Source: Weissella diestrammenae (GTDB taxonomy: Bacteria; Bacillota; Bacilli; Lactobacillales; Lactobacillaceae). Taken from it: a DNA stretch of 64,000 nt. The notes below the pieces were generated by a model that saw only the letters and a list, made by a program, of their open reading frames with translations, was not told where the DNA came from and did no database searches. Below are positions 3,250 to 30,572 of the stretch, in pieces. Made by a program: the position numbers and the translations under genes. Where the stretch lies: contig NZ_CP060724.1 in NCBI RefSeq assembly GCF_014397255.1, positions 620,001 to 684,000 of the forward strand. Direction: 5' to 3'. How positions within the stretch are numbered: the first letter of the stretch is position 1; every line of letters starts with the position of its first letter.

Positions 3250-4077
3250 TCATTGTAGTGGATTATAATAACGGCTACCCGTATAAATCACTAATATCAG
3301 CGCCACGCTAACTATCCCAATTATCCCAATCAGCACAGCCCAGTCCAATCGTTTAAATTGCTGATCATAGTACCATGTACGCCGCTTCTTCAAACCGAAT
3401 CGTCTTAACGCCATCGCGCGACTAATCTCATCAATTCTTGCAAATGAGCTCAACACTAATGGCATCACAACTCGAACCGCATTCGTTATGCGTTGCTTAA
3501 TTGGCGCTGATTTTCCAACATCAAATCCGCGAGCTTGCTGGGCATACGAAATCATTTGATACTCGTTTTGGACATCTGGAATATAACGTAAAGTTAAAGC
3601 AAAAGCGTAGGCCACCCGATATGAAATCCCAATTTTATTCAAACCTGCCGCAAATTCACTGGGATTGGTCGTGAGCAAGAATAATAAAGCCATCGGTAAT
3701 GACACCATATATTTTAATGCAACAATACTTTCATATAGTAGTTGTTCTTGCGTTAAAGCATAATCACCAGAACCCAATATCACGTGCTGACTTCCAAATA
3801 AACTAACCCCATACTGCGGGGCAAATACATAAATCAACAATAAATTCAAACCAGCAAAAAGGAGCACCGCATATACAAATACCGCAATTTGCTGCCATTT
3901 AACGTGGGTTGACACCAAAACGATTATTGTCAGAACTGCCAGCCCAAATAAATACCGCACATCAAAGCTTAACATCGCAGCAATCGTCAATGCCAAAAAG
4001 CCAACTAATTTCGTGCTACCAGTGAGTCGATGTACCCATGAATCACCTGCCTGATAACCTAATAACTGCGTTGTCAT
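3250..4077 (-). CDS. mtsV: ECF transporter transmembrane (T) component
   Basis: EcfT-type membrane coupling protein linking the ATPases to the substrate-capture subunit. The 275 residues contain several membrane spans and the two EcfT coupling motifs with Ala-Arg: QQARGFDVG near residue 180 and AMALRRFG near residue 220. It is last in the operon SAM hydrolase - S component - dual ATPase - T component, so it is dedicated to this S component. The symbol follows the MtsTUV scheme for methionine ECF systems; substrate assignment rests on the T-box upstream. Confidence 0.85.
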   Translation of the reverse strand: MTTQLLGYQAGDSWVHRLTGSTKLVGFLALTIAAMLSFDVRYLFGLAVLTIIVLVSTHVKWQQIAVFVYAVLLFAGLNLLLIYVFAPQYGVSLFGSQHVILGSGDYALTQEQLLYESIVALKYMVSLPMALLFLLTTNPSEFAAGLNKIGISYRVAYAFALTLRYIPDVQNEYQMISYAQQARGFDVGKSAPIKQRITNAVRVVMPLVLSSFARIDEISRAMALRRFGLKKRRTWYYDQQFKRLDWAVLIGIIGIVSVALILVIYTGSRYYNPLQ

Positions 4078-4095
4078 GATGTTACCCTCCTTTCC

Positions 4096-5793
4096 TCATT
4101 CGTTTAACATCCGTACTATTTGTGCAGTCGACCACGTGCTGTCAAACCTGTTTATCAAAGTCATCAGGCCCGTTTGTCTTAAATCAGCGACATGCAAAAT
4201 ACTTTTATTTTGTAATAATTCTGACGGTTCCATATCAGCAACGACCTGACCATCAACCATTGCGATTGTCCGTTGCGCAACAGTCTGCAATAAATTCATA
4301 TCATGCGTAATCAAAATGACCGTTAATCGCTCTTCATGATGTAATTCAGTCACTAATTGTATCAGCGACTTGGCATGTGTTGCGTCTTGTCCAGCTGTTG
4401 GCTCATCTAAAATCAATACCTTAGGTTGTAAAATTAACACTGCAATAATTGATAATCTCTTTTTCTGACCGTAAGACAAGACTGAGACTGGCCAATGACG
4501 AAACTCATATAAATCGGCAATTTTCAATAATCGATCGACTTGTGTCTTAATTTCTGATTCAGCAATACCACGTAATCGTAATCCAATCGCAACTTCGTCA
4601 AAGACATTAGCTTGCGTAAACATTTGATTTGGATTTTGTGCAACATATCCAATATATTGTGCTCTTTCTTTAATAGACAACGCCAATAAATCTGTTTGCT
4701 TAAATCGAATCTCTCCCGATAATGGGTTTAAAAAACCTGCAATTAACTGCATCAATGTTGATTTACCCGAACCATTTTTACCAACAATGGCTATCATCTC
4801 ATCAGCCTTAAAATTCAAATTAAAGTCAGTAAAAATATGTTGGCCTGTTGGATAGCCAAAATTCAGCCGTGCAATACGTAACCCAATCTCGTCATTTAGC
4901 ATACCACTCGATAATTCTGGCGTTGATTCAATTGAAGCTACAAATTGTTTCAAGCGCTGCTCTAAATCAGGTGCAGTTAACTCATCTGGTTGCTCAATAT
5001 TTTTAACCTGCTTTAAATCGAGCCCCGCAGCTTGCAATAATTGAATATATGTCGGCGTTGCCAATCCAAATCGTGCCAGTTGACCACTAGTTAATGTTTG
5101 CGGTACTGTTGCGTCACTCACCACCTGACCATCATCTAAAATGACAATTCGATCCACACCACCCGTCAATATGTCTTCAATTCGATGCTCACCAATGATA
5201 ATTGTCAAATCATCCTCAGCTTGGAGGCGCGACAATAACTTCATCATTCGCTGACCTGAAGCCGGATCTAGACTAGCCAGCGGTTCGTCCAACAATAAAA
5301 TAGGTTCATCGTCAATCAAAACACCAGCCATTGCAACACGTTGCTTTTCGCCGCCAGATAACACTTGTGGCGCCAAATCAATCAAATCAGTCACATGAAG
5401 TTCCGCGGCCCAATCGGCAACCTTAGCCATCAGTTGCGAATGAACCAATGCATCATTTTCTAGCGCAAAAGCAATATCTTCACCAGTTGTTAAGCCGACA
5501 AATTGTGCATTCGAATCTTGTAATACGGTACCAATTACTAAAGACCGTTTAAATACCGATTGTTGCGTCACATCTTGCCCTGATAAATTAATCCGTCCTG
5601 TGACAGTGCCTGCATACTCACTTGGAATTAACCCATTTAATAAACGAGCTAGTGTTGATTTACCTGATCCTGACCGACCAGTTAATAAAATTTTTTCACC
5701 TTGATGAATCGTGAGATTGATATGTTGTAACGTTGGTGTTGCTTGCGTATCATATTGAACGCTCACATCTCGTAATTCTAGCAACGGCGCCAT
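4096..5793 (-). CDS. mtsU: ECF transporter ATPase, two fused ABC domains
   Basis: A 565-residue fusion of two ABC ATPase domains (EcfA-EcfA' type, like YkoD). Domain 1 has Walker A GRSGSGKST, signature LSGGEKQRV and Walker B ILLLDEPLASLDP. Domain 2 has GKNGSGKST, a modified signature LSYGQKKRL and LILDEPTAGQD. All catalytic motifs are intact. The ATG at 5791-5793 is chosen over one seven codons upstream because GGGGG lies seven bases before it. It sits between the S and T component genes of the same operon. Confidence 0.88.
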   Translation of the reverse strand: MAPLLELRDVSVQYDTQATPTLQHINLTIHQGEKILLTGRSGSGKSTLARLLNGLIPSEYAGTVTGRINLSGQDVTQQSVFKRSLVIGTVLQDSNAQFVGLTTGEDIAFALENDALVHSQLMAKVADWAAELHVTDLIDLAPQVLSGGEKQRVAMAGVLIDDEPILLLDEPLASLDPASGQRMMKLLSRLQAEDDLTIIIGEHRIEDILTGGVDRIVILDDGQVVSDATVPQTLTSGQLARFGLATPTYIQLLQAAGLDLKQVKNIEQPDELTAPDLEQRLKQFVASIESTPELSSGMLNDEIGLRIARLNFGYPTGQHIFTDFNLNFKADEMIAIVGKNGSGKSTLMQLIAGFLNPLSGEIRFKQTDLLALSIKERAQYIGYVAQNPNQMFTQANVFDEVAIGLRLRGIAESEIKTQVDRLLKIADLYEFRHWPVSVLSYGQKKRLSIIAVLILQPKVLILDEPTAGQDATHAKSLIQLVTELHHEERLTVILITHDMNLLQTVAQRTIAMVDGQVVADMEPSELLQNKSILHVADLRQTGLMTLINRFDSTWSTAQIVRMLNE

Positions 5794-5834
5794 ACTAAGT
5801 CCCCCTTCATTCAAATTTTTGTCATCCCCTTATC

Positions 5835-6383
5835 TCATTTATCTCGTGTCAATGCACCCTGTTGGATTTTTGTCCGACTGTAACCAACTAATAACAAAGT
5901 TCCGATGATTAAAATTGAAATAAAGTTGATACCGGTTGCAACAAATCCCTGCAAGAACACTTTATTTGCTGGCTCACTGTAGATCAATATATCGCCAAGG
6001 GGGGCAATAACCGACCAGGCAAGCACATTTGCTAATAATTGCCATAAATTAAAACCAATCAGTTTCCAAGTCGTTAATTGACCAGCGCCTAACTTGAGAT
6101 ACCGTAAACCAAATCCTAAAATAAGACCAAAAGCCGTATCCGCAATCACCCATGACCACCAAATGGCACCATAAGAAACCGCATCATTTAAGCTGTGCCC
6201 AATCAACGCGACAAGACCTGCGACAATTGGACCAAAGATTGCTGCAACTAATGATAACCAAGCCTCGGCAACATTGATTTGGGTATTTGGAATACCAGTT
6301 GGAATCGCAATAAATTTAAACAAAATAAAGAATACTGCTGCACTAATACCGATTGCCACTACTGAACGTGTTGATAATTTCAT
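5835..6383 (-). CDS. mtsT: ECF transporter S component, UPF0397 family (methionine-related)
   Basis: Substrate-capture membrane subunit of an ECF importer, 182 residues with about six spans. Family signatures are IPTGIPNT near residue 28, GHSLNDAVSYGAIWWSWVIAD near residue 61 and EPANKVFLQG near residue 137, which I recognise from UPF0397/MtsT proteins. The operon is preceded by a T-box with AUG candidates in the specifier region. The gene before it encodes a SAM-hydrolysing enzyme. Together these point to methionine or a methionine-containing compound such as SAM as substrate; the exact ligand cannot be read from sequence. Confidence 0.8.
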   Translation of the reverse strand: MKLSTRSVVAIGISAAVFFILFKFIAIPTGIPNTQINVAEAWLSLVAAIFGPIVAGLVALIGHSLNDAVSYGAIWWSWVIADTAFGLILGFGLRYLKLGAGQLTTWKLIGFNLWQLLANVLAWSVIAPLGDILIYSEPANKVFLQGFVATGINFISILIIGTLLLVGYSRTKIQQGALTRDK

Positions 6384-6439
6384 TGTTATTCTCCTTTTTC
6401 ACTGCTGAAGGTTATTTTGTATCGACTCAATCCACGCAA

Positions 6440-7282
6440 TTACAAATGTTGAATTTCAACCGACCAATCAGGTCCTGCACTCACATGATTTTGCTTTGCA
6501 AAATCACCCGTGTGAATGGCAAAGCCAACTGTATAGACTGAATTGATATAAATCAATGCATCTCCTGGATTAACGTCAGCAAAAGTTTTGACATACTGCA
6601 ATTTTTCCTGCGCTTGTAACACACCCCGATGATAAATTTTGACGTTAAACCAATCACCTAACGTCGCCTTAAACTCACCTGTCCATAAGTCCTCATGAAT
6701 ATTCGTCCATAATGAACCAAAATTAACGTCAGTAATATCAATGTTTCCAGTTAATATATCATCATGATATTCCGGTAAATTAAGCGGTAAGGTCACAATT
6801 TTTTCTGTATCGTACAAAGGACCAACTTCTTCAAATGTAATGATGCCAGCCGCTAGGCGCGCCCCGGTATATGCGTAGATATCACGTCCGTGGAAAGTAG
6901 CCGATTTCTCTGAACCTGCCAACCGATTGACACTTTCATCAATTTGTCTAACAGCAACAATGCCATAGGCCTGTGCTAAATGGGTCAGCGTGCCATTATC
7001 TGGCGTTACCACATAATGACCACTAACTAATTTCACCACGATTGATAATCGATTAGATCCCACACCTGGGTCAACAACTGAGACAAATACCGTACCAGCC
7101 GCCCAGTATTTTATCGTTTGTGCTAATCGAAATGACCCTTCAAAAATATTAAATGGTGTAATACCATGCGTTAAATCAGAAACAACTAAATCGTCACTGA
7201 CCGAATAAGCGACACCATACATTGTTGATACAGCACCATCTTGTTGTCCAAAATCTGATTGTAATACTAAATGATTTGCCAT
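6440..7282 (-). CDS. SAM hydrolase / SAM hydroxide adenosyltransferase (DUF62)
   Basis: DUF62 enzymes use water to split S-adenosylmethionine into adenosine and L-methionine. The 280-residue protein shows the family pattern: LQSDFGQQDG at the N-terminus, VSDLTHGI near residue 34, VSVVDPGVGSNR near residue 67 with the conserved Asp and Arg, FVTP-like VTPDNGTL near residue 92, and the FHGRDIYAYTGARLA block near residue 129. A C-terminal beta domain follows. It is the first gene after a methionine T-box and is co-oriented with an ECF importer, suggesting it recovers methionine from imported or internal SAM (inference). Confidence 0.85.
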   Translation of the reverse strand: MANHLVLQSDFGQQDGAVSTMYGVAYSVSDDLVVSDLTHGITPFNIFEGSFRLAQTIKYWAAGTVFVSVVDPGVGSNRLSIVVKLVSGHYVVTPDNGTLTHLAQAYGIVAVRQIDESVNRLAGSEKSATFHGRDIYAYTGARLAAGIITFEEVGPLYDTEKIVTLPLNLPEYHDDILTGNIDITDVNFGSLWTNIHEDLWTGEFKATLGDWFNVKIYHRGVLQAQEKLQYVKTFADVNPGDALIYINSVYTVGFAIHTGDFAKQNHVSAGPDWSVEIQHL

Positions 7283-7289
7283 CTGTTTC

Positions 7290-7530
7290 TCCTCTAAATA
7301 AAAAGTCCTCTGTAGCTAACAATAACTACAGAGGACGTTAATAACGTGGTACCACCTCAAATTCGTGCAATCAAATACACCTTAATAGCTATAAAGCGCA
7401 ACCTTGATACTGTAACCAAATCGGCTCCAGTATCATCTGCTCCAAGACCATCTTCGAATTGTTATCATGACACATTCCCACCTAGCAGTGCTCTCTTAAC
7501 AGATAATCAATTTTACTCATCTTTTCATTG
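7290..7530 (-). promoter_or_regulatory. T-box riboswitch, probably methionine-specific
   Basis: The minus-strand leader carries the T-box core AGGTGGTACCACG. A terminator follows, with the arms GTCCTCTGTAG and CTACAGAGGAC and then TTTTTATTT. Upstream are AGAGAG and GGTG elements typical of stem I. An ATG followed by A (7466-7468) lies where the specifier codon is expected. A further hairpin pairs GATACTG with CAGTATC. Uncharged tRNA-Met should favour antitermination and switch on the SAM hydrolase/ECF operon. Confidence 0.88.
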
Positions 7531-7551
7531 CATGAATTTATTATGTGGAAA

Positions 7552-7580
7552 ATATTAGAACTTTACTCATTATTTGTCAA
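7552..7580 (-). promoter_or_regulatory. Sigma-A promoter of the T-box/SAM hydrolase operon
   Basis: Consensus TTGACA (7575-7580) and TAATAT (7552-7557) separated by exactly 17 bases, immediately upstream of the T-box leader. Confidence 0.85.
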
Positions 7581-7602: not shown

Positions 7603-8397
7603 CTAGACTAATTTGTGACGAATAAATCCTGACACAGCATCAATCACCGTCACCATGATAATCACACCTAATAAGATAATGCCTACGCGGGACCAACTCC
7701 GTGTTTGTAGCGCGAAAATTAAGGGTGCCCCAATTCCACCAGCGCCAACAATTCCCAAGATAGATGCTGAACGAACTGAAATTTCAAAACGGTATAACGT
7801 ATAATTCATGAATTCCGGCAGAACGGCTGGTAACGTTGCCAAGGTCAGTCCATCCAATCCAGTACCACCAGCCGCAACGATTGATTCATTCGGACCACGA
7901 TCAATATTCTCCACTGCTTCAGAAAATAGTTTTCCTAGCATACCAATCGAATGTATGCCCACTGCTAAAACACCCGCGTAAGCACCTGGGCCAACCGCCT
8001 TAATAAACATAATTGCTAAGACAATTTCTGGAAATACCCGAATTACCGTCAATGCCACCTTGCCACTCGTTGAACGTGGTGTGAACCATCGGTGTGATGT
8101 ACGTGCAGCCCAAAAAGCAAACGGCACCGACAAAATCGCCGAAATAAATGTGCCTAAAAAGGCAATCGCCAAAGTTTGAATTAAAGCGGAAAATAAATCC
8201 TCACCATCTCCCGTATAGACATATGCCCAATCTGGATGAAATAATCCGTTAAAAATGGCTTGCGTAATTGTCCAAGCTGTCGATTTGACTGCTGATAGCG
8301 GAATACCACTAAACGCCCAAATGAGTAACCCGATAACAATTAACCCAATACTACCTTGCCCTATCTGTCGTCTGATATTTTTTTGTTTATCCTGCAT
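7603..8397 (-). CDS. phnE: Phosphonate-type ABC transporter permease (second)
   Basis: Membrane permease of 264 residues, about five or six spans. The EAA-type coupling loop reads EAVENIDRGPNESIVAAGGTG near residue 160, typical of PhnE, where NIDRGP/EDIGP-like text precedes a conserved glycine. Its start overlaps the stop of the other phnE at 8397. The pair probably forms a heterodimeric channel for phosphonate or phosphite. No C-P lyase genes are visible, so only uptake is encoded here. No terminator is obvious before the next promoter at 7580. Confidence 0.85.
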   Translation of the reverse strand: MQDKQKNIRRQIGQGSIGLIVIGLLIWAFSGIPLSAVKSTAWTITQAIFNGLFHPDWAYVYTGDGEDLFSALIQTLAIAFLGTFISAILSVPFAFWAARTSHRWFTPRSTSGKVALTVIRVFPEIVLAIMFIKAVGPGAYAGVLAVGIHSIGMLGKLFSEAVENIDRGPNESIVAAGGTGLDGLTLATLPAVLPEFMNYTLYRFEISVRSASILGIVGAGGIGAPLIFALQTRSWSRVGIILLGVIIMVTVIDAVSGFIRHKLV

Positions 8398-9176
8398 TAT
8401 GCCAATGCCTCCCGTGCACGATTTGAAATACCGTCAACAACAATCACCACAGCTAAAATCATCAAAATGACAATGATTGTGCGATCATATCGAAACATTG
8501 ACATCGTCTGACTGAGATATAAGCCAACACCCCCTGCGCCTAAGTAGCCCAATATTGTCGATGCACGGACGTTAATTTCTAACGTGTAGAGAAAATAACT
8601 CAAGAATTGATTAAACACCTGGGGAATAACTGCGAACAAAATAATTTGTGCGCCATTAGCTCCAGCTGCTTTCAACGCATCTAGAGGCCCTTCGTCAATG
8701 GTTTCAATTGCTTCATAAAACAATTTTGAGACCATGCCAAAAGAAAAGACGGACAAAGCACCGACACCGGCCATCGGTCCAATCCCAACCACCGCCACAA
8801 AAAGCGCCCCTAATAATAAGTCTGGCAATGCACGAATTAAATTTAAAAAGAAACGGATACCACCACGAACCCAGCGTTGTTTAATTAGATTTCTGGCTGC
8901 TAGCACACTAAATGGCAAAGCCAATAGTGCACCGACAACTGTCCCAACAATGGCCATCTGTAACGTTTGTAACATCGGTTGAATGATTGTCGGAATATAT
9001 GACCAATCTGGGCGCACCATTTTTTGAATAATATTGATAAACTGATCCCATGAAAATTCTGCCGTTACCTGCGTGTTAACCGCAGAACCAATCATAATGA
9101 GCACAATTAAGACCACCAATAATAGGGGTTTTACATGCCAACGTGCGCTAAATGTACGACTTGGTAAACTTGTCAT
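8397..9176 (-). CDS. phnE: Phosphonate-type ABC transporter permease (first)
   Basis: A 259-residue permease homologous to its downstream neighbour. The coupling loop is [21 protein letters not shown] near residue 157. Four to six hydrophobic segments are visible, the first at residues 15-35. It overlaps phnC by four bases (9173-9176) and the next permease by one, so the three genes are translationally coupled. Tandem PhnE paralogues are common in Firmicute phosphonate/phosphite systems. Confidence 0.86.
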
Positions 9177-9949
9177 TTCGATGACTCCTTTGCTGATTCT
9201 TCGACATAAATCGCATCAAAATCATTTTGGTTAACCTCATCGATTGGTTTATCATAGACCAATTGACCTGCTCGCAAGCCAACAATCCGACTAGCATATT
9301 GTAGAGCCAAGGGTACCGAATGGAGATTTACAATGACCGTTAGGCCAAGTTCCTCATTCAAACGTTTCAAATCATCCATGACCATTTGGGTGTTTTTGGG
9401 GTCTAAGGCAGCGATAGGTTCATCAGCCAAGACAACGTGTGGAGATTGAACCATTGCTCGTGCAATCGCAACACGTTGCTGTTGCCCACCTGACAGTTCG
9501 TCAGCACGGATATAATATTTTTCAAGCATATTCACATGTTCCAAAGCAACGATTGCTTGTTGTTTATCAGCAGCTGAAAACAGGCCTAATATCGATTGCC
9601 ATGTCGCATAATAGCCGACCCGCCCGTTTAACACATTTCGGCCAACAGTTGCTCGCTTAACCAAATTAAAATTTTGGAAAATCATGGCAATGTTGCGTCG
9701 AATATTGCGTAATTGCCGGCCTTTAGCTTGGGTGATGTCTTGACCATCAATAACAATTGTCCCACTTGTGACATCATGCAAGCGATTAATCGCCCGCAAC
9801 AGTGTACTTTTTCCAGCGCCAGACAGCCCAACAATCACAACAAATTCGCCGGCCTTAATATCAAGATCGACCTGATTTAAGCCAATCGTACCATTGGGGT
9901 ATATTTTTGAAACATTTTTTATTGATACTGCCCCATTTTGCTCCACCAT
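9173..9949 (-). CDS. phnC: Phosphonate-type ABC transporter ATP-binding protein
   Basis: ABC ATPase of 258 residues with intact Walker A (GLSGAGKST near residue 43), Q-loop (IFQNFNL), signature ([14 protein letters not shown] near residue 152) and Walker B ([13 protein letters not shown]). The [20 protein letters not shown] segment after Walker B is characteristic of PhnC. GGAG lies upstream of the ATG. It heads the phnC-phnE-phnE unit, separated from phnD by a terminator hairpin. Confidence 0.9.
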
Positions 9950-9987
9950 ATATTTCTCCTTGAGATTACTCTATTGTCATATTAGTT

Positions 9988-10024
9988 CAAAAAGAACCAC
10001 GACCAAAAAATTTAGTCGTGGTCC
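9988..10024 (-). terminator. Intrinsic terminator between phnD and phnC
   Basis: On the minus strand GGACCACGAC and GTCGTGGTTC form a ten-base stem followed by TTTTT. It probably lets phnD be expressed more strongly than the membrane and ATPase genes. Confidence 0.8.
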
Positions 10025-10039
10025 CCAGATGCTGTTTGT

Positions 10040-10972
10040 TTACTTCATATCTTCAACAGCTTGATGGTATTGACGAACAATATCAAAATTACTATCTTTT
10101 GACTTTGTTACGCCGGCCCATGAATAAACATCATTCATTACTTGCTTACCAGTCTTACTCTTTGAAACTGAAATCATTGCATTTTGGATGGTTTTTGCAT
10201 CCTTTTTTGAAATACCTTTACGGAGTGAAATCGTATCATTTGGTATCTTTGCAGTGTACATCAATACCTTTGTTTGCTTGAAAACATCAGGATTATCTTT
10301 CTTAACGATATTACGTGCATCATCAAAAACGAATGCCGCATCAGTATCATGATTTAGCACTGACAAAACGCCCTGATCATGACCTTTCACAGTTACTAAC
10401 TGGGTATTGTTTTTCAGAATATTGACCCCTTTTTTCTTCAAATCAATCGCTGGGAACATATATCCTGCATCTGATGTGGTATCTTGAACAGCAATCTTCT
10501 TCCCCTTCAAATCTTTAATTGAATTAATCTTAGCGTCTTTACGAACCAGAACCATGGCTTTATAGTAATTAACCAGCTTATCTGTGTTAGCGCCTGTATT
10601 ATCATCTTTTAAACCAAGTCGTTGAGATTGCAAAATTACCTTCGCCCCATATTGTTCATGTGCTTGCACATAACCTGCAGGTGGCAAAAATCCCATGTCA
10701 ACTTTCTTTGAACCCATTGCCTCAACAATGGTGTTGTAATCAGTTGAAATCGTAACATGGACTGGGACACCCAATTGCTTTTTTAATAAACCTTCCAACG
10801 GCTTAACTTTTGCAGCAATTGTATCAGCTTGCGATGATGGTACAAATTGTACATTGAGTTCCTTCATCGCAATCTTTTTCTTTGCCGCATCAACTTGTGT
10901 CGTTGGTGCGATTGATAGTATTGACGCCAAACTTAAGGCAATCATTGACCCAGCAGCAATCCTTTTAAACAT
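10040..10972 (-). CDS. phnD: Phosphonate/phosphite-type solute-binding protein
   Basis: Extracellular binding protein of 310 residues (PhnD family, type II periplasmic fold). A signal peptide (residues 1-29) ends in a VDA-like type I cleavage site. Family text includes the LNVQFVPSSQADTIAAKVKP opening, VPVHVTISTDYNTIVEAMGS near residue 73 and ALRKG-like ISLRKGISKKDA near residue 250. No lipobox cysteine is present in the signal region, unusual for a Gram-positive ABC binding protein, which is normally lipid-anchored. First gene of the transporter; own promoter at 11051-11079. Confidence 0.86.
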   Translation of the reverse strand: MFKRIAAGSMIALSLASILSIAPTTQVDAAKKKIAMKELNVQFVPSSQADTIAAKVKPLEGLLKKQLGVPVHVTISTDYNTIVEAMGSKKVDMGFLPPAGYVQAHEQYGAKVILQSQRLGLKDDNTGANTDKLVNYYKAMVLVRKDAKINSIKDLKGKKIAVQDTTSDAGYMFPAIDLKKKGVNILKNNTQLVTVKGHDQGVLSVLNHDTDAAFVFDDARNIVKKDNPDVFKQTKVLMYTAKIPNDTISLRKGISKKDAKTIQNAMISVSKSKTGKQVMNDVYSWAGVTKSKDSNFDIVRQYHQAVEDMK

Positions 10973-16814: not shown

Positions 16815-17127
16815 GATAACAAGTAAACAAGTTGAGCAGAAAAGTACATGCGTTGTAACGGCCTAGAGAGATAGCGTTTGGTGGGAGCTATTCCGTTAGC
16901 ACGTCTGGAAAATGATCTGTGATTGGTATCAGTGAGTAGCAAGTCTATCAGCTGATAACGGATTGGTCTACGTTACAAGACACACGAATCGGCAAGGCAT
17001 CATTTCGCTCTCTGCCCGCTCGTTGTCAAGGTTTTAAAAAGCAATTTTTAAAATGAAGTAGAATGGTAACACGAGAACTCGTTTCTATTTTTGGTATGTC
17101 AATATCAAAATAGGGACGAGTTTTTTC
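16815..17127 (+). promoter_or_regulatory. T-box riboswitch upstream of metQ, probably methionine-specific
   Basis: A long leader whose first domain closes by pairing TTGTAACG (near 16853) with CGTTACAA (near 16970). It contains AGAGAG, a GGTG loop between ATAGC and GCTAT arms, and AATGATC with a candidate AUG specifier at 16912-16914. The T-box core GAATGGTAACACG is at about 17062. The terminator arms AACTCGTTTCTATTTT and AAAATAGGGACGAGTT follow, then TTTTTT. It should antiterminate on uncharged tRNA-Met. Confidence 0.85.
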
Positions 17128-17184
17128 TTTTCTGCCAATAAGTTTACGGCTTATCACATCTTATATTTGAAGGAGTTTATGATT

Positions 17185-18018
17185 ATGAAGCAAACATTTA
17201 AAATTGGGGTCATTACCCTTGCCGCTGGTTTGGTTGCCAGCGTGATTGCCCCTACTATTTCACCCGCTTCAGCCGCTAGTAAGAAGACCTTAACTGTTGG
17301 TATTGTTGGTACTTCTGATGCTAAATTATGGCAAGAAGTTGCCAAAACGGCCAAGAAGAAATATGGTATCACTTTAAAGACAAAGGTCTTCACTGATTAC
17401 AATACGCCTAATAAGGCCTTAGCTGATGGTTCCCTTGATTTAAATGCTTTCCAACACTACAATTTCTTGAATAATTGGAACAAGTCAAACAAAAATGCAG
17501 TTAAAGCCATTGGTAAGACTTTCATTACACCAATCCGTTTGTATGCCACTGATGTTAAATCAGTTAAGAACATCAAGCACGGTGCAACCATTGCCGTACC
17601 AAACGATCCAACTAATGAAGGCCGCGCCTTAACTTTGTTACAATCAGCTGGATTAATCACATTGAATAAAACAGAATTACCAACGGTTAAAGACATCAAG
17701 GAAAATAAAAAAGACCTTAATATCAAAGAAGTGGCTGCTGACCAAACACCTTCAGCCTTGAAATCAGAAGGAGCAGCTGTTATTAATACTAACTATGCTC
17801 AAGATGCCAAAATCAAATTAAGCGCTGCAGTTTATGTTGAACCAGTCGATAAAGCTTCAGAACAATGGATCAATGTCATTGCGGTTGCCAAAAAGAATGC
17901 CAACAAAAAAGCATACAAAGATATTGTCAAAGCCTACCAAACTAAGGCCACTAAACAATATCTGAAAAAAACTTGGGGCGATGCTGAATTGCCTGCTTGG
18001 GACATTAAATTAAAGTAG
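17185..18018 (+). CDS. metQ: Methionine-binding protein MetQ (NlpA family)
   Basis: Extracellular binding protein for D/L-methionine uptake, 277 residues. Signal peptide residues 1-31 ends in an ASA-type type I cleavage site. NlpA-family text: LTVGIVGTSDAKLWQEVA after the signal, NAFQHYNFL near residue 95, and IAVPNDPTNEGRAL near residue 140. No lipobox cysteine is present, although most MetQ proteins are lipoproteins. The ATG at 17185 is chosen because AAGGAG lies nine bases upstream; nearer and upstream alternatives exist. First gene of metQ-metN-metI behind a T-box. Confidence 0.93.
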   Translation: MKQTFKIGVITLAAGLVASVIAPTISPASAASKKTLTVGIVGTSDAKLWQEVAKTAKKKYGITLKTKVFTDYNTPNKALADGSLDLNAFQHYNFLNNWNKSNKNAVKAIGKTFITPIRLYATDVKSVKNIKHGATIAVPNDPTNEGRALTLLQSAGLITLNKTELPTVKDIKENKKDLNIKEVAADQTPSALKSEGAAVINTNYAQDAKIKLSAAVYVEPVDKASEQWINVIAVAKKNANKKAYKDIVKAYQTKATKQYLKKTWGDAELPAWDIKLK

Positions 18019-18134
18019 TCGCTACCCATCATGGTTGGTAACAACCATTTTAAAAACGGTAAACGTTTTGGTACTAGAGTCATCGCTAGTCCCCCCTTGA
18101 TCATCTCCTGGGGGATACATATAAAACTTAATCT

Positions 18135-18168
18135 GCCCACAAACGATGACCTACGTGTGGCTTTTTTA
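18135..18168 (+). terminator. Intrinsic terminator between metQ and metN
   Basis: CCACA and TGTGG close an imperfect stem followed by CTTTTTT. A separate CCCCC/GGGGG hairpin lies just upstream at 18091-18114 without a T-run and may stabilise the 3' end of the metQ mRNA. Confidence 0.65.
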
Positions 18169-18198
18169 TATGAAGAAGAATTGAAACGGAGATGAAAC

Positions 18199-19248
18199 AT
18201 GGCAATTATTGCACTTGAAAATATCAATGTCACTTTTAAACAAAAAAAACAAACAATCGTCGCCGTCCAAGATGAAACGATTCAAATCAATCAAGGCGAT
18301 ATTTATGGCATTGTTGGCTACTCAGGCGCTGGTAAGTCGACTTTGGTTCGAACAATTAATATGTTGCAAAAACCTACCAGTGGCTCTGTTAAAGTTCAAG
18401 GCGTCGAGATGACAACGCTTGACCCTAATGCTTTACGCAACGCACGGAAAAAAATCGGTATGATTTTTCAGCACTTTAATCTTTTAGATGAAATCACCGT
18501 TTTCCAAAACGTTGCCCAGCCCCTCAAACACGCCAAACTATCTAAAAAAGCTAAGATTGAAAAGGTTAACCACCTCCTTGAGCTCGTTGGCTTATCTGAT
18601 CGTGCCAATAATTACCCCGCACAACTTTCAGGGGGTCAAAAACAACGTGTTGCGATTGCACGTGCTTTGGCAAATGATCCTGATATTTTGATTTCAGATG
18701 AAGCAACTTCCGCCTTGGATCCACGAACAACAAATCAAATTCTAGCTTTACTCAAGAAATTAAACCAGACCCTTGGTTTGACCATTGTTTTAATTACCCA
18801 TGAAATGCAAGCCATTAAAGAAATTGCCCACCACGTGGCTGTCATGGAAAATGGACATATCATCGAACGCGGTACATTGTTAGAAATATTCACTGCACCC
18901 AAAGCCCAATTAACCAAAGACTTCATTAACACCGCCACAAACCGTGAAGAAGCGTTGATTAAAGTGCAAGAATTACTGACGACACATCCATTGGCAAATG
19001 ATGAAGTGCTAGTTTCCATTGACTTTGTGGGTGAACAAACGGCACAACCACTGATTTCACGCCTCTATGCCGATTTCAATGTGTCAGCCAATATTTTGTA
19101 CTCAAATATGGAAATTTTAACCAATACGCCAGTGGGTACAGCCCTCGTCGTCTTGAAAGGAACCAACGACCAGTTAACATACGCCATTGCTGCCTTTAAA
19201 CAAAATCACGTAACAATCAATACCATTCCACAAGGGGGGAACCACTAA
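18199..19248 (+). CDS. metN: Methionine ABC transporter ATP-binding protein MetN
   Basis: ATPase of 349 residues: Walker [10 protein letters not shown] near residue 40, Q-loop IFQHFNLL, signature [14 protein letters not shown] near residue 142, Walker [14 protein letters not shown]. Beyond residue 265 lies the C-terminal NIL/C2 domain, an ACT-like methionine-sensing domain that trans-inhibits the transporter in E. coli (here [20 protein letters not shown]). GGAG precedes the ATG. It overlaps metI by one base. Confidence 0.94.
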
Positions 19249-19943
19249 TGTTTAATTGGATTAACACTTATTTCCCAAATATTTATACCCAAGGTTGGGG
19301 TGGTGACTTCGGCTGGGGTACTGCTATCTGGCAAACGCTATACATGACTTTTGGTGCAGCTATTTTCGGTGGTATCTTAGGTTTGCTCTTTGGCATTGGT
19401 TTAGTTTTAACGACTGATGATGGTTTAACACCTAATCATGCCCTTTTTCAAATTTTTGATAAGGTTGTTTCCATCGGTCGAGCCATTCCATTTATTATCA
19501 TGGTCGTAGTCATTTCGCCAATCACGCAACTAATCGTCCACACTACCATTGGGGCAACCGCTGCTCTCGTCCCACTTTCACTTGGTGTCTTTCCATTTTT
19601 TGCGCGTCAAGTTCAAGTGGCTCTACTTGGTGTCAGTGCGGGTAAAATTGAAGCTGCCCGTGCCTATGGCGCAACTAATTGGGATATTATCGTTGACGTC
19701 TATCTACGTGAAGGGCGCGCTGAATTGATCCGCGTCTCAACTGTGACCCTGATTTCCTTAGTTGGTTTAACGGCCATGGCAGGTGCCATTGGTGCTGGTG
19801 GCCTTGGAACAACCGCAATTGTCACTGGCTATCAACGCTTCCAAAATGACGTTATGTGGTTAGCAACGATTATCGTCTTGCTCCTCATCGTCATTATTCA
19901 ATTTACTGGTGACTTCTTGGCTAAACGTGCACATCATAAATAA
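19248..19943 (+). CDS. metI: Methionine ABC transporter permease MetI
   Basis: Permease of 231 residues with about five spans. The EAA loop reads KIEAARAYGATNWDII near residue 143, and ALVPLSLGVFPFFARQVQ and the GAIGAGGLG segment near residue 180 are typical of MetI. Translation is coupled to metN (stop and start overlap as TAATG). Completes the second methionine importer in the window, alongside the ECF system at 3.2-7.3 kb. Confidence 0.94.
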   Translation: MFNWINTYFPNIYTQGWGGDFGWGTAIWQTLYMTFGAAIFGGILGLLFGIGLVLTTDDGLTPNHALFQIFDKVVSIGRAIPFIIMVVVISPITQLIVHTTIGATAALVPLSLGVFPFFARQVQVALLGVSAGKIEAARAYGATNWDIIVDVYLREGRAELIRVSTVTLISLVGLTAMAGAIGAGGLGTTAIVTGYQRFQNDVMWLATIIVLLLIVIIQFTGDFLAKRAHHK

Positions 19944-22747: not shown

Positions 22748-22762
22748 AATCGTAATTTCAAT

Positions 22763-22898
22763 TATCTGGGGTGCCAATTTGGCTGAGAAATACCCATTGA
22801 ACCTGATGATGGTAATGCATCCGAAGGGAGATACATCTTTTAATTGCCTTTTTTGGTCAACGACGATGTGCTCTATCATCAGTCGATGGCCATTTTTT
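22763..22898 (+). promoter_or_regulatory. TPP riboswitch (THI box) with terminator platform
   Basis: Canonical aptamer elements in order: GGGGTGCC, GGCTGAGAAATACCC, GAACCTGAT, and GGTAATGCATCCGAAGGGA. Downstream, TGGTC..CGAC pairs with GTCG..GGCCA and is followed by TTTTTT (22854-22898), giving a transcriptional off-switch when thiamine pyrophosphate is bound. Confidence 0.95.
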
Positions 22899-22935
22899 AT
22901 TTACCTCAGGCTGTGCAAAAAAAGGAGTCGGGTTC

Positions 22936-23769
22936 ATGAATACTGTCACTGAATTACAAACTAAAATGCAACAAGTCGTCAGCGTAGTTAAATCAACAAC
23001 GCCACTCGCACCGTCAATCACAAACACTGTGACGATTAATTTTGTCGCCAATACCCAACTTGCTGTTGGTGGTAGTGCGGCAATGATTTATTTACCAGAT
23101 GAGGGAATCACACTAGCCCAAATGGCTAACTCGTTTTACCTTAATTCAGGTACCTTGGAACCCTTTTATACTGAGACCTTTCCAGCGACAGCCAAGGCCA
23201 TGCACGAGCAACATAAGAATTGGGTGCTCGATCCAGTTGCACTCGGCATTGGTACCATGCGTACCAACTTGATGCACGAATTCAAAAGTTACAAGCCAAC
23301 GATTATTAAAGGTAATGCGTCAGAAATTATCGCACTGGCTTCTTTGTGGGAATTGATTCATCATCAAGATTCAACGGTTAAGGGTGTCGACACGACAGAT
23401 ACCGTGGACGCTGCACGACAGGCTGCCGTTGCATTAGCCCAATATACAAGCGGAGCGGTAGTCGTTAGCGGAACTGACGATTTGGTAACTGATGGCCAAC
23501 AGGTTATCATGTCACACGGCGGTAGTCCCATGATGGGGCTCATTACTGGTGCTGGTTGTTCACTTGGGGGCGTCATCAATGTTTATGCCACTAGTACTGA
23601 CCCATTAACAGCTGCCCTCACTGGTGTTCAGATCTACAATTTAGCTGGTCAGCGCGCTGCAGAATTGGCCAATGGTCCTGCTAGCTTCCAAACAGCTTTC
23701 ATCGATGCACTCTATCATGCCACCGCTGAAGAAATCGCCCACAATCCCTTTGATGTGGAGGCAATCTAA
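22936..23769 (+). CDS. thiM: Hydroxyethylthiazole kinase
   Basis: Phosphorylates the thiazole moiety for thiamine salvage. 277 residues. Family motifs: NFVANTQLAVGGSAAM near residue 35, the DPVALGIG loop near residue 97 and the catalytic-cysteine anion hole GAGCSLGGV near residue 206. AAAGGAG precedes the ATG. First structural gene after the TPP riboswitch; abuts the next ORF with no gap. Confidence 0.94.
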   Translation: MNTVTELQTKMQQVVSVVKSTTPLAPSITNTVTINFVANTQLAVGGSAAMIYLPDEGITLAQMANSFYLNSGTLEPFYTETFPATAKAMHEQHKNWVLDPVALGIGTMRTNLMHEFKSYKPTIIKGNASEIIALASLWELIHHQDSTVKGVDTTDTVDAARQAAVALAQYTSGAVVVSGTDDLVTDGQQVIMSHGGSPMMGLITGAGCSLGGVINVYATSTDPLTAALTGVQIYNLAGQRAAELANGPASFQTAFIDALYHATAEEIAHNPFDVEAI

Positions 23770-24075
23770 ATGAACACCTTAATTTCAGTTGCAATTGCCC
23801 CACTCGGTACCGGTGACGAATTAGCCTCGAGTGTCGCAAAAATCATTGATGTCATTGAAAAATCAGGCTTAGACTACCAGACCCATGCCATGACCACCGA
23901 AATTGAAGGTGACTGGGACGATGTTTTTGCGGTGGTTAAGACAGCCACACAGGTGTTAACTGATCAAGGCCAACGCGCCTATGTGTCACTCAATGCTGAT
24001 GTTCGCCCTGGCTATACTAAAACAATGACTGAAAAAATAAGGAGGCTCAACCATGCCCGCAACCAAATCATTTGA
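23770..24075 (+). CDS. Thiamine-binding protein, MTH1187/UPF0045 family
   Basis: Small cytoplasmic protein of 101 residues of the YqgV/MTH1187 group, a ferredoxin-like fold reported to bind thiamine or related pyrimidine compounds. Visible features: ISVAIAPLGTGDELASSVAK at the N-terminus, the YQTHAMTTEIEGDWDDVF segment near residue 38 and RAYVSLNADVRPG near residue 76. It sits between thiM and thiE under the TPP riboswitch, in the place often taken by thiD. Its 3' end overlaps the thiE start, whose ribosome site lies inside this gene. Confidence 0.82.
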   Translation: MNTLISVAIAPLGTGDELASSVAKIIDVIEKSGLDYQTHAMTTEIEGDWDDVFAVVKTATQVLTDQGQRAYVSLNADVRPGYTKTMTEKIRRLNHARNQII

Positions 24076-24748
24076 TTTAAGCGCCTATCTTATTATTGGC
24101 CCTGAAAACACGTTAAATCGACCAGTAAAGTCGGTGATTCAGGCAGCTATTAAGGGTGGGATTACTTTTATCCAAATTCGCTCAAAAGTAGCTGATGCCA
24201 AAGACCTCATCGCATACACTCGTGATGCCGCTGCGGCAATTGCTGAAGCTGGTCAACAAGATCGAATCAAGCTCGTTGTGGATGACCGCTTAGATGTCGT
24301 CCTTGCTGCCCGCGACTTAGGTATTAAAGTGGATGGTCTTCATATTGGTCAAAGCGACCTCCCCATTGACTTTTGTCGTCAATATCTTGGCCCTGATGCC
24401 ATCCTCGGCGTTTCCGCACGAAATGCCGAATTATTAGCCTATGTCAAAGAAACTGATGTGACAGATATTGACTATTTTGGTGCTGGGCCATTTCATCCAA
24501 CTCAAACCAAACCTGAAGCCGGTCGTGATGAGAAAACAGGCGAAATTCACACTCGGCAAGTAGCCGAATTAATCGAATTAGCACACCTATCACCAATTCC
24601 TGTCGTTGTCGGTGGCGGCGTGAAATTAGCCGATATGCCACAATTAAAAGCAACTGGTGTTGCTGGATTTTTCGTCATCACAGCCATCACAGAAGCTTCC
24701 GATCCAGAAAGGGCTACCCGGGCTTTAGTAACTGCTTGGCAAGCCTAA
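24053..24748 (+). CDS. thiE: Thiamine-phosphate synthase
   Basis: Joins HMP-PP and thiazole phosphate to form thiamine phosphate. TIM barrel of 231 residues with IQIRSKVADAKDLI near residue 38, VDDRLDVVLAARDLGIKVDGLHIGQ near residue 82, DYFGAGPFHPTQTKPEA near residue 142 and the phosphate-binding VVGGGVKLADMP near residue 186. AAGGAGG lies before the ATG. No thiD is present nearby, so HMP-PP must come from elsewhere. Confidence 0.93.
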   Translation: MPATKSFDLSAYLIIGPENTLNRPVKSVIQAAIKGGITFIQIRSKVADAKDLIAYTRDAAAAIAEAGQQDRIKLVVDDRLDVVLAARDLGIKVDGLHIGQSDLPIDFCRQYLGPDAILGVSARNAELLAYVKETDVTDIDYFGAGPFHPTQTKPEAGRDEKTGEIHTRQVAELIELAHLSPIPVVVGGGVKLADMPQLKATGVAGFFVITAITEASDPERATRALVTAWQA

Positions 24749-24963: not shown

Positions 24964-25497
24964 TTATTCGCTATATGTATTATTTAATCGCCATGTAAGT
25001 TCTGACTCTTTGGAACCAATGGTCAGCGTCCCAGTCGTTGGCAAATGTAGTTTAAATTCATCGGCTGTGTACGAATAAGTTGTTAATCCCTTTTTGTCTT
25101 CACTATTTGACCGGAAAGTGATTTGATCACTAGCAATTGATGAATCACCAAAATAAATTGGCATGGTTTCTTTTGCAATTTCATTTGTATTCCAATTGCC
25201 ACTTTGTTCAACGGTAATACCAAAATGCCCCGCGTGACTTTCTCGACCATCGTTGACGCGAATCAAGCCTGATGCCAGATTGCCTTTTGGCTCACCCCAA
25301 CTACTTAAATTAATCGAGCCGAAGTCAACGTTACCCGCCTCACCTTGAAAAGTAAGTTCGGTATTATTATTAGTAAAGGTTACTTTTCCGTTTGACTTTA
25401 TACTTGTAATTGCTTCGCCATAAATTGTCAGGGGCGTCAGTGCAGAAACAGTCAGTAACGTGGTAAGACTAAGTGTAACGACTTTTAATTTTTTCAT
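24964..25497 (-). CDS. Short WxL-domain surface protein
   Basis: Secreted protein of 177 residues. Signal peptide about residues 1-28 (KKLKVVTLSLTTLLTVSALT). The mature part is a lone beta-rich WxL-type domain: VDFGSINL near residue 58 and, at the end, SELTWRLNNT, the distal WxL motif (W-R-L). WxL domains bind peptidoglycan non-covalently in low-GC Gram-positives. AAGGAG precedes the ATG. It is followed by no gene on its strand and preceded by 400 bases without coding sequence, so it is likely transcribed alone. Confidence 0.75.
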   Translation of the reverse strand: MKKLKVVTLSLTTLLTVSALTPLTIYGEAITSIKSNGKVTFTNNNTELTFQGEAGNVDFGSINLSSWGEPKGNLASGLIRVNDGRESHAGHFGITVEQSGNWNTNEIAKETMPIYFGDSSIASDQITFRSNSEDKKGLTTYSYTADEFKLHLPTTGTLTIGSKESELTWRLNNTYSE

Positions 25498-25904
25498 TAG
25501 TTTTCTCCTTTATTAACGTGTTGTTTGTATGCCTATCCGACATGTTTTATTATGCCTATTGAATATGATGAAAAATAAGTGTTTTTGTTTTGTTTTTGCA
25601 AAAAGATATTGAATTAAATACTAATGTTATGTTAATTCATATTTTTTGTCCTTAATTTCGGACTTTTTTACTTTATTTAAATCAGCTTTCCCAAAACCAA
25701 CCAAACTAACCCAACTTCAAAGTCTACATTAGTCATGTGATTCACATCATCATCACTTTATTCTTTGAAACAGGAATAATAGTTCTTACTCACACACATT
25801 TATGACATTTATCGACTGGTTGGTAATCGTATCCTTTAGCGTAGAAAAAATCACTTAATTAGCCTGATTAACATCAGATACCTGCGTTAAATTCATTGAT
25901 TTTT
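25498..25904. other. AT-rich intergenic stretch without a gene
   Basis: No supportable ORF, RNA gene or strong promoter. A weak CATAAT lies about 50 bases before the downstream WxL gene start on the minus strand. A GTCC/GGAC mini-hairpin near 25650 has only four stem pairs. Confidence 0.5.
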
Positions 25905-26474
25905 CTAAGTTGGGGTATCTTCAATTTGCCAAGAGAGTTGCGTTTCATACGCGACATCCGGCTGAATCGATTGATTCATGGCTAAATGGGCCTCAAACGT
26001 GTTTTCTTGAATTGGGATCGTCACTGTTCCGCGTTGCTCACTTGGGTTTGATTGCACAAATACTGCTGCTGCACTAGCCAAGGGGTAATTTTGATAATAA
26101 ATAACTAGTCCTGATTGGGGAATCGAATGCGGTCCGGTAGTAAGTGGCGACCATGTTGTCCCAGTTTGTTGAACAGAAATTTGATATTGCTGTCCATTAG
26201 GCCGTTGTACGCGTGTATCATCAAACGTCACTTCAGAATTATCTGTAGATACCACACTATTATGGAAAATATGTTTTTCTGGTGTATCTAATGCCTGACT
26301 AGTTGTCATTTGAAATCTAATACAGCCGGCACTAAAATGCTCGCCCAAGCTGCCTGCATCGCTAATCATAAATGCCGAGTCTGTTGTGGTTTGTGCCAAG
26401 GCTTGTTGCGGTAAAAAACTGAAACCTAATCCTAATGCACCCATTAACATGATGTTTATTTTTGTTAAATTCAT
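25905..26474 (-). CDS. Short WxL-like surface protein with WxI motif
   Basis: Secreted protein of 189 residues from the ATG at 26472-26474, chosen because GAGG lies eight bases upstream and a clean signal peptide follows (INIMLMGALGLGFSFLP, cleavage near ALA-QTT). The C-terminus reads YETQLSWQIEDTPT, matching the distal WxL motif with Ile replacing Leu. One cysteine (SAGCIRFQ) occurs in the mature part, unusual for an exported Gram-positive protein. The ribosome site lies inside the end of the upstream gene; the coding regions overlap or nearly so. Confidence 0.65.
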   Translation of the reverse strand: MNLTKINIMLMGALGLGFSFLPQQALAQTTTDSAFMISDAGSLGEHFSAGCIRFQMTTSQALDTPEKHIFHNSVVSTDNSEVTFDDTRVQRPNGQQYQISVQQTGTTWSPLTTGPHSIPQSGLVIYYQNYPLASAAAVFVQSNPSEQRGTVTIPIQENTFEAHLAMNQSIQPDVAYETQLSWQIEDTPT

Positions 26475-26484
26475 ACCATTCACC

Positions 26485-27432
26485 TCAACTTTCTTGGCTC
26501 GGATAGTCACCAAGGGTATACGTAAAGGTTGCCGTATAGGTCAATTGATGAAGGGATTGATTCTTTGGGATTCTTAAAAAATAACACCCTTTCACACGAT
26601 CGCCAGTATTATATTTACCCTTTCCAACCAAATTGTATTCATTCTCACCACTCGATCCGGTTTTCTCTGCCTTAAGCCCATTCACCTCACCCCCATATTC
26701 ATAAGTAAATGTGCCAAAGGTATTTGCTGCATTATCCGACATCGCATTGACAGCATTATCATCCATTACCCAATGAATCCCTTCACCCGCACGAAACGTC
26801 TTTGTGTCATTCCGATTCGCTTCGGATGAATTCGTATTTCCCGATGAGGTATAGACAAAATTATCATCCGTTTCAATCCTGACTTTCTCCGGTGATAATT
26901 CCTCACGCTCATAAGTGGTTTCATCTCCCACGCCTTGATGTGGCACAAACGTATGAAATGGCTCTGACATCTTAACCGTTGTTAACAAAGGTGTATTCAC
27001 CGCCTTATCGGAACGCAAGTCAACAATTTGACAAAACGGACGCACACCAAAGGCGGCACCATGTTCGCCAACTTGAACCCCTGTCACAATCGGATAAATG
27101 CCAACTGCATTGCCTAAGTCTTTGTAACTACCATCATTGGTCATCGTATTCGACAGCATATTACTAGATATATTTCCAAAACTCAAGCGACTAATATAAG
27201 TAAAGCCAAAGCCGTTGGCGACCACACCATTAATTTGTTGACCATTAATCATTAACGGTTCGCCTTTTGCTCCCCATTCACTGTTTGTATTCGTTGCGGT
27301 TGCCATTTGATTATTTTCAACATTAAAGTCAACACCATTTTCAATGCTATTCGCTAGTACACAGTCTGATAGCCCACAAATAACAATTTCAAGTAACGCT
27401 ATACTGATTAATAGCTTCTTAATCATTCTCAT
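26485..27432 (-). CDS. WxL-like secreted protein with tyrosine-substituted motif
   Basis: Secreted protein of 315 residues. Signal peptide about residues 1-27 (KKLLISIALLEIVICGLSD). The mature region is beta-rich; the C-terminal 40 residues read LTYTATFTYTLGDYPS, aligning with the distal WxL motif but with Tyr in place of Trp (Y-T-L). Two cysteines in the mature part (RPFCQIV near 132 and KGCYFLRI near 282) could form a disulfide. GGAGG precedes the ATG. It lies between the big adhesin and the short WxL-like gene, all co-oriented. Confidence 0.6.
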   Translation of the reverse strand: MRMIKKLLISIALLEIVICGLSDCVLANSIENGVDFNVENNQMATATNTNSEWGAKGEPLMINGQQINGVVANGFGFTYISRLSFGNISSNMLSNTMTNDGSYKDLGNAVGIYPIVTGVQVGEHGAAFGVRPFCQIVDLRSDKAVNTPLLTTVKMSEPFHTFVPHQGVGDETTYEREELSPEKVRIETDDNFVYTSSGNTNSSEANRNDTKTFRAGEGIHWVMDDNAVNAMSDNAANTFGTFTYEYGGEVNGLKAEKTGSSGENEYNLVGKGKYNTGDRVKGCYFLRIPKNQSLHQLTYTATFTYTLGDYPSQES

Positions 27433-27482
27433 CGCGACAATCCTCCAGAAAAATCCACACTCATTGTGCTATAGCATCACTA

Positions 27483-30400
27483 CTAGGAAGGCGTGCTGTT
27501 GAGCGTCAAGACAATTGTTGGTGAAGATATGCCATCATCATCATCATCATCATCATATAGATAATATCCATGTTTTATCATATGGCTACTATTTAGACTC
27601 AAGAACCAGCCTTTTTCATTTAATGCACCTGTTGGATTCCAATCTTGACTCAAATTAACCACGGGCTCACCTTGATTCCCCGTCTCTCGATTAAAGAGCA
27701 TCGAATCTTCTGTTGAAATCAGCTGTTCAGCGCCATCTTGTTGTGCGCGATAACTTAACATTAAATCATCCCCCGTTAATGAACCCAAAGACGAATAACA
27801 CGCTGTAATTTCCCAAGGTATATTGTGATTTGTTGAATCATCTCCGACTAACAACGCCCCAATATTAGTACTATAATGCGTATTCAAGGCATTTTTATTG
27901 AAATGACCATCCATCCCTCGACGGAAATTCCCAAAATTGAAATACTCCAATGAATCAATAATATATGGCAATTTTTGTTCAGGTGCAATGGTTCTATATT
28001 CAGCAGAATGCGCTTGATAGTCATGATAGCTATACGACACTGGTGCCGCTTCAATGCTTTCGTCATTCACAGTCGCTTGTGTCCAAAACTGAATTTGAAC
28101 GCCTTGTTCAATCTGTTTACTAGGATTTTCCTGATTATGGGCCAATATTTGTGCTTCCGTGACAGTCCATTCCTTACCATCATTATTGGTTGAATAAGTT
28201 GCTCTATCTAACGTCATTAAATCCACGTAAGAATCAGCACTATCTTCTCCACGTAAAATAATCCGATCCGTGTTAATCATTGTTTTGAAAGTAAACCCGC
28301 TTGACGCATAAATAATGGCTGATAGGTCATAAACCGGTGGCGCATACGTCACGGTTTTTTTAACCGTTGTTGTTTCAACTTCATCATTTGGTAACTTGAT
28401 TGAGAAGGTTTGATTGCCATTTTGATATTTTGAATGATAAAGCGATCCGTTCGACTCGTCCGCTGGTAGCGACCAATTTTGTGACTGTTGACTTTCAAAT
28501 TCAAAAACCCCATTTGCGTCCGTGGTCGTCGTATTACTAACCAGATTAAATGTTGGCGTTGCTGTGATGGTGTGTCCTGACCCACTCCCGCTCCAGGTGA
28601 CAGTCCCATTATCATAATCAATTGTCGGACGGGCAGCAACATGATAAACACCACGAATATAGCGGTCTGAATCAGATATAGCCTCAGTTTCATCACTCAC
28701 ATACGGAATACTTTGACGATTAGGGTAGATTTGTCCATCATCAGTTTGATATGTTCCATCATGTAGTTGCTTGGCCCATTTTAACCACTCAAAATTCTGG
28801 CTCTGTATTTCAAAGACCGTATATTCCTGTTGTTGAACCACACTACCAAAAGCATTATAACCTGCAGTTCCAGTGGTAGGATAACGCGTCCCATTTTTCA
28901 ACAGAAAATAATTTTCCCCTTGCGTATAGCCATGTTGCACCATTTCATTGATTGCCACATGATTCCATATCCAACTAGAATTATGATCATCTTTTGAATA
29001 ATTATTATTATTCATATCATTAAGACTGCCATAAAATGACACGTTACTATTGATAATATTCATTTCTAAAACCTTCGACCCAGTCGTATAGCCGGTCCAA
29101 TCTGTCTCACCACCATTAATCATGCAATATTTTGGTGAATCAACATGGAATTTTAATGTGACCCCGCCATCGGTCGCACTACCTGGAATCCAAATTGATT
29201 GTCCTTGAGCGCTTAATGGCGAAATCACTAACGTGCCACGACTAGCACAATTAAAATTGACATGGGCGTTTGTACTTAACGTTGCCGATGGTACGCGAAT
29301 CACACCATTGTAAGCTGTGTTCTCATTTGTAATACTCGACATGGCTAACACGCCATCCGTTTTAATATTCCAATTGGTCGTTTGCGTTACCACCTTGTTT
29401 ATATTATTCCGTGCCACGACAACGCCATCATAACTTTGAAGTAATAAAGTGCCCCCAATATTCATCTCGCCACTACCATCAATAACGCTATAGTCCTGTG
29501 AAGCAACGCCATTTCCAGCCCGGCTTTCATTTTTCCTCTGAATCAATACCTTTGCCCCTTGGTCAATATCAATCCCCTTTGCTTGGACATTAGTATATTG
29601 GTTGGTATTCGCTCGTCGATAATTGTTAAAAATCCCCCAGGTTTCAACGACATAGCCATTCGAATTGGTTGTTGCTGTCGCGGTCGTCGCTGTTTGATTA
29701 TTATGTATCCCTTGATATTGACAATCACTATAGGCATGGATTGTACCACCCATGAGTTGACTCCCTTTAGTGGTCATTTGAATTAAATGATGTAGGTTAA
29801 TGGTCATTCCTGGTAATAAAAAAGCTGAGAGATAGCCGGTACCACTTAAGTTAACACTAACCTTGTCCAGTGTTAAACTACCTACTAACGACACATTATC
29901 CGTATTGGTATTACGCCACAAAATACTATTTTTAAAATTATCAGAATTAATACTTGCATCCGTTTCACTACTTGAAAAATTAATATCCTTAATTGTTATG
30001 TTAGGTGTCGTACTAATATTACTCGAGACGCCTAAGCCACAGATTGAACTCCCTGTACCTTTAAAATTAATCGTCACTGGGGAGTTTGGATTAGCGCTTG
30101 TAATGATACAATCTGTTGTTCGTAAATTGTTACTCATCGTCGTGTAATCACTATATGTATAATCAAAATTTGAACTGACAATAATCTCGCTCACATTAGG
30201 ATTTTGCCAAGCGGCAACAAATGTCTCGGTGTCAGTGACCGTTGCTGTAGCGCCTAAAATATGTCCGGTAGATGGTGCGTTATTAATCACATGAAATGAC
30301 GCCTGCTGATCATCATGAACTTTTTGTTCCACCGGTTGTTTGGCTGACTGTTCATCGGTTTGTGACGTCTGATTTCCCTTTGGTATTTCCAATCCAGATT

Positions 30401-30569: not shown

Positions 30570-30572
30570 CAA

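Follow-up and report, generated by a model that had tools for sequence, protein, structure and literature searches.

A methionine T-box operon of Weissella diestrammenae that joins a DUF62 gene to an ECF transporter, and its possible role in methionine salvage

Operons in which a DUF62 gene is followed by the genes of an ECF transporter are of an already known and annotated type. The S component of such a system in Streptococcus suis is annotated as 'MtsA of methionine-regulated ECF transporter' (PMC9423846), and the wording 'methionine-regulated ECF' recurs in two further papers. The operon described here shares with these MtsA-type systems (SSU0361-0363 of S. suis, and spd-0431 onward in Streptococcus pneumoniae) the order of DUF62 followed by the S component and probably also methionine control (PMC9423846, PMC5359408). 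In S. pneumoniae, spd-0431, spd-0432 and spd-0434 are 1.6-1.8-fold up in the absence of methionine; the spd-0431 promoter is also up under this condition, and CmhR is an activator of spd-0431 (PMC5359408). We take spd-0431 to be a DUF62 gene because the published spd-0431 primers (PMC5131005) correspond to the DUF62 gene in a genome that is taken to be a Streptococcus, the reverse primer exactly and the forward primer with three mismatches. In S. suis, the gene at the place of DUF62 is probably also DUF62, judging by this position and by a label that it shares with the DUF62-family PDB chain 7ccg. Both SSU0361 and 7ccg are mislabelled as 'DNA-directed RNA polymerase subunit delta', and 7ccg aligns as a chlorinase-type protein. 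In Listeria, lmo2587 is listed as a Met T-box gene (PMC2494555) and, from its genome position, is likely to be DUF62. The Listeria-type lone DUF62 shares the Met T-box before DUF62 with our operon, but has no ECF genes after it.

The window analysed here is a stretch of 64,000 nucleotides of the W. diestrammenae contig NZ_CP060724.1, which belongs to a 1.66 Mb genome in a single contig; among named genomes, Weissella and other Lactobacillaceae come closest to it. The layout of the minus strand from 7580 to 3250 is that of a single transcription unit (Table 1), in which the DUF62, S component, ATPase and T component genes are separated by gaps of 56, 20 and 18 nt. The preliminary description had read this unit as a SAM hydrolase gene with a full ECF set (UPF0397 S component, fused ATPases and T component) under a T-box, and profile matches confirm all of these parts at the coordinates and on the strand given in Table 1. 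With an S-component fold, two ATPase domains and a T component encoded in one operon, the transporter belongs to group I of the ECF importers, and the NF010182 match of its UPF0397 S component, together with the predicted methionine control, places it in the methionine-regulated ECF (MtsA) family. The fused ATPase starts at a TTG at 5814, with an ATG at 5793 as the alternative candidate. Directly upstream of the T-box operon, a phosphonate/phosphite-type ABC operon (phnC, a phnD-like gene and two phnE; 7603-10972, minus strand) carries no T-box of its own.

Table 1. Features of the DUF62-ECF operon, with positions numbered in the window
Feature	Position	Strand	Evidence
Candidate sigma-70-like promoter TTGACA-17-TAATAT ahead of the T-box	7552..7580	-	Promoter scan, 10/12 matches; overall promoter counts across the region are at chance level
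T-box leader RNA	7328..7537	-	RF00230, 99.1 bits against a gathering score of 93
Specifier codon AUG (Met), in the context GAA-G-AUG-G (7448-7455)	7449..7451	-	Sequence reading and Rfam alignment
Intrinsic terminator, competing with the antiterminator	7305..7336	-	Hairpin of 14 pairs with T-tail; folding energy -23.6 kcal/mol, z = -8.4
DUF62 / SAM hydroxide adenosyltransferase, triad D71, R78, H131	6440..7282	-	PF01887 5e-48, PF20257 6e-16
UPF0397-type ECF S component	5835..6383	-	PF07155 1.2e-43; NF010182 217 bits (cut-off 99)
Fused double ECF ATPase with DUF3744 linker	4096..5814	-	Two ABC_tran domains and DUF3744
ECF T component, CbiQ family	3250..4077	-	PF02361 5.9e-30

The leader has the features of a methionine T-box, namely an Rfam score above gathering, an AUG following GAA in the specifier loop, and a terminator. 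An AUG specifier was present in 28 of the 28 T-boxes found, of which 23 precede DUF62 and five precede DUF62-free ECF operons. By our own estimate, GAA-N-AUG-R or GAA-NN-AUG-R would occur by chance within the searched 280 nt in about 7% of leaders, and its presence in all 28 is therefore not due to chance. The specifier, the terminator and the related leaders support the earlier proposal that methionine starvation probably controls this operon through a Met T-box. Since the pneumococcal system employs the LysR-type CmhR in place of a T-box, the same operon is probably under methionine control by different regulators. No CmhR site, as published for S. pneumoniae, was found at up to three mismatches before the streptococcal DUF62 genes examined, and a loose search returned nothing convincing. 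Control by a SAM riboswitch was also considered and rejected: the loci scanned gave no match at gathering score, and a simple S-box pattern returned one unconvincing motif only.

The DUF62 protein combines the SAM_HAT_N and SAM_HAT_C domains with the His-Arg-Asp triad, which marks the SAM-hydrolysing members of the family, the halogenases being without it (PMC10491745). D71, R78 and H131 are each conserved in 110-111 of 111 relatives, and in PDB alignments the wild-type hydrolase chains share these residues, whereas all three are absent from the chlorinase-type chains 2q6o and 7ccg. Family and triad make SAM-hydrolase chemistry, as claimed in the preliminary description, probable. The (R)-SAM hydrolases StDUF62 (Salinispora), MJ1651 and PH0463 likewise possess both Pfam domains and the triad; our protein, however, falls far under the cut-offs of the corresponding NCBIfam equivalogs (115.4 against 350 for NF058624, 105.5 against 470 for NF053629), and hence an epimer preference is not transferable to it. 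StDUF62 prefers the non-biological (R,S)-SAM epimer, a point absent from the earlier reading. DUF62 enzymes are widespread, and what they are for is disputed: a recent study doubts that hydrolysis of (R,S)-SAM is what StDUF62 does physiologically, or that every DUF62 enzyme has this role (PMC12120602).

The AlphaFold model of the S component (pLDDT 92.9) adopts the ECF S-component fold and is about equally near to ThiT, RibU and FolT (Z 15-18), which belong to dedicated group I vitamin importers whose ATPases and T component are encoded next to them. Sequence identity with S components of known structure is, in contrast, only about 12-20%, and the sequence carries no specific ligand signature. 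Residues H63, D67, W75, W78, W123, P128, D131, Q145 and G146 are identical in DUF62-linked and lone UPF0397 rows, one truncated row apart; at most, they hint at a cationic, aromatic compound as a possible ligand. Another S type, diverged from this one and also encoded beside DUF62, keeps T34, D67, W75, W78, P128 and Q145 and changes H63, W123, D131 and E137. As to naming, the statement that the S component is annotated as methionine-type agrees with the published S. suis name (PMC9423846) but not with the current Pfam and NCBIfam names, which give riboflavin.

A neighbourhood survey of UPF0397 and DUF62, a check that the preliminary description had itself suggested, revealed that the pairing is widespread. 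DUF62 is present in 140 of 395 Lactobacillales genomes, and at least 112 of the 143 DUF62 matches in these genomes have a strong UPF0397 match on the same strand, at most 4 kb away, a lower bound in that some of the remaining loci do carry an S gene. Most of the best 80 DUF62 loci from species genomes, including those of Clostridia and Actinobacteria, adjoin S, ATPase and T genes, and the order DUF62-S-ATPase-T recurs among them in Enterococcus, Bacillus pumilus (Bacillaceae), Clostridium, Brachybacterium and Actinomycetaceae. The pairing far exceeds chance, although the genomes counted, being related, are not independent, and its conservation across phyla bears out the view that the importer in this transcription unit is a dedicated one. 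Within the genus of the window genome, a close DUF62 occurs in 7 of 28 genomes; four others possess a close S component without DUF62, its gene lying beside ATPase and T genes with no T-box found directly before it. An orphan UPF0397 paralogue is also present in the W. diestrammenae genome at 1169.9 kb (L139:5892-6446), beside mutL and without an ECF module. It keeps residues of the H63, D67, W75, W78 and W123 type, and in the genus most genomes have second copies like it. Operons with two DUF62 genes were seen at L042, L043, L045, L057, L063, L066 and L070, and also at L024, L033, L041 and L049, some of them in Clostridia; the usual S type goes with one group and the diverged type with the other, which suggests two related substrates.

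The reading that we favour, with a confidence just short of even, is that this is a methionine-starvation salvage operon whose importer most likely carries an external methionine compound, SAM or a close adenosyl-sulfur relative being the leading candidate. Uncharged tRNA-Met would cause the T-box to let transcription through the terminator, and the dedicated ECF importer and the DUF62 SAM hydrolase would then be made. The importer would take up the external compound; if this were SAM, the imported (S,S) epimer would spare methionine directly, while the spontaneously formed (R,S) epimer would be hydrolysed by DUF62 to methionine and adenosine. The enzyme would recover methionine from intracellular (R,S)-SAM too, and for this reason each part may be useful without the other. 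What the importer carries, which epimer this enzyme acts on and in which direction the flux runs are the elements of this scheme that we infer. A more specific version, possible but doubtful, holds that UPF0397 ECF transporters are importers of SAM, including its (R,S) epimer, and that DUF62 turns the unusable epimer into methionine during starvation. Such transporters would, to our knowledge, be the first of the ECF class to import SAM. The conserved pairing of DUF62 with an importer of its own, controlled by methionine, suggests methionine recovery as the purpose and allows the ligand to be tested directly. Were SAM the cargo, external SAM would be a resource for many lactic acid bacteria, enterococci and streptococci, and this S-component family should no longer be labelled as riboflavin-type.

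The metabolic setting was examined in the window genome, which has metK and one nucleosidase, Pfs-like by sequence; a search of this genome found no LuxS, no MetE/PF01717 and no PF02574 (homocysteine methyltransferases). It apparently cannot regenerate methionine from SAH, and a direct SAM-to-methionine step would therefore be valuable; DUF62 is the only such return route found in this genome. SAM auxotrophy was considered as proof of SAM import and rejected. metK was seemingly missing in two complete operon-bearing genomes, where the C-terminal domain is present and the upstream part apparently masked; since metK is found in all well-assembled genomes checked, no SAM auxotroph backs SAM import.

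A credible alternative, quite possible though we lean against it, is that the ECF transporter imports L-methionine or a simple source of it (methionine sulfoxide, S-methylmethionine), and that DUF62 is co-regulated only, recycling or detoxifying internal (R,S)-SAM and returning methionine, such that the two share a regulon and not a substrate. The name 'methionine-regulated ECF transporter' is in keeping with this (PMC9423846), as is the repeated separation of the two parts. On the S tree, DUF62 linkage undergoes 13 changes, at least 10 of which (gains or losses) are forced by supported branches, with the invariant residues unchanged, and most of the DUF62-unlinked S genomes on the tree have no DUF62 anywhere. 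Lone ECF operons with a Met T-box occur at five Lactobacillaceae loci (in Leuconostoc-type genomes and another Lactobacillaceae genus), and lone DUF62 genes with a Met T-box occur in Listeria-type genomes (L102, L103 and L107), which have no strong UPF0397 in the genome among the matches listed. Each part can therefore serve methionine supply alone and, as the lone ECF transporters have the same invariant S residues, use of the cargo does not need DUF62.

Weighing against plain methionine import is the near universality of MetQNI, which makes it less needed: MetQ-type lipoproteins are present in 392 of 395 Lactobacillales genomes, and in the window a second T-box with an AUG specifier (16823-17089, plus strand) precedes metQ, metN and metI (whole stretch 16823-19943). 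For the same reasons the ECF transporter is not a substitute for the methionine ABC importer, and no pattern of mutual exclusion was found. Furthermore, the very strong linkage to DUF62 exceeds what shared regulation needs, and two diverged S types both adjoin DUF62. The facts fit both an ECF transporter that brings in SAM (both epimers), with DUF62 rescuing the useless epimer, imported or internal, and one that imports methionine itself. The preliminary description had supposed that starvation leads to import of SAM or another methionine compound and to its hydrolysis. Methionine control, the hydrolase family and the linked ECF transporter speak for this; import followed by hydrolysis is, however, not obligatory, because DUF62 and ECF separate repeatedly while the invariant S residues stay unchanged.

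The neighbours of the lone ECF operons are mixed and mostly unrelated, and the idea of a substitute enzyme beside them was discarded. The only one to come directly after the T gene is a PepV-type dipeptidase gene, in two Leuconostoc-type Met T-box ECF operons without DUF62 (L098:1816-3276 and L100:9146-10606). Two lone streptococcal UPF0397 S genes (L083 and L085) adjoin lipoate protein ligase genes.

It is unlikely, in our estimation, that the transporter imports some other adenosyl or sulfur compound (MTA, SAH or an adenosine-like molecule, for example) and that the substrate of DUF62 is a related compound other than SAM. The doubts about (R,S)-SAM hydrolysis as a role common to all DUF62 enzymes (PMC12120602) would accommodate this, and the tandem DUF62 paralogues and second S type of Clostridia suggest more than one substrate. 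The methionine-specific T-box in all 28 leaders points instead to a product that yields methionine.

Finally, that the system is a riboflavin importer, as the Pfam and NCBIfam names and the NF010182 score would have it, together with a remote profile match to RibU (E 5e-4), is very improbable in view of the methionine T-box, the DUF62 partner and a fold no nearer to RibU than to ThiT or FolT, and the lack of any FMN riboswitch in the whole window at Rfam gathering scores also counts against it, with the proviso that not every RibU gene has one.

Elsewhere in the window, a TPP riboswitch is followed by thiM- and thiE-like thiamine salvage genes (22757-24748, plus strand), and a cluster of genes for secreted proteins with WxL-like ends occupies 24964-30572 on the minus strand.
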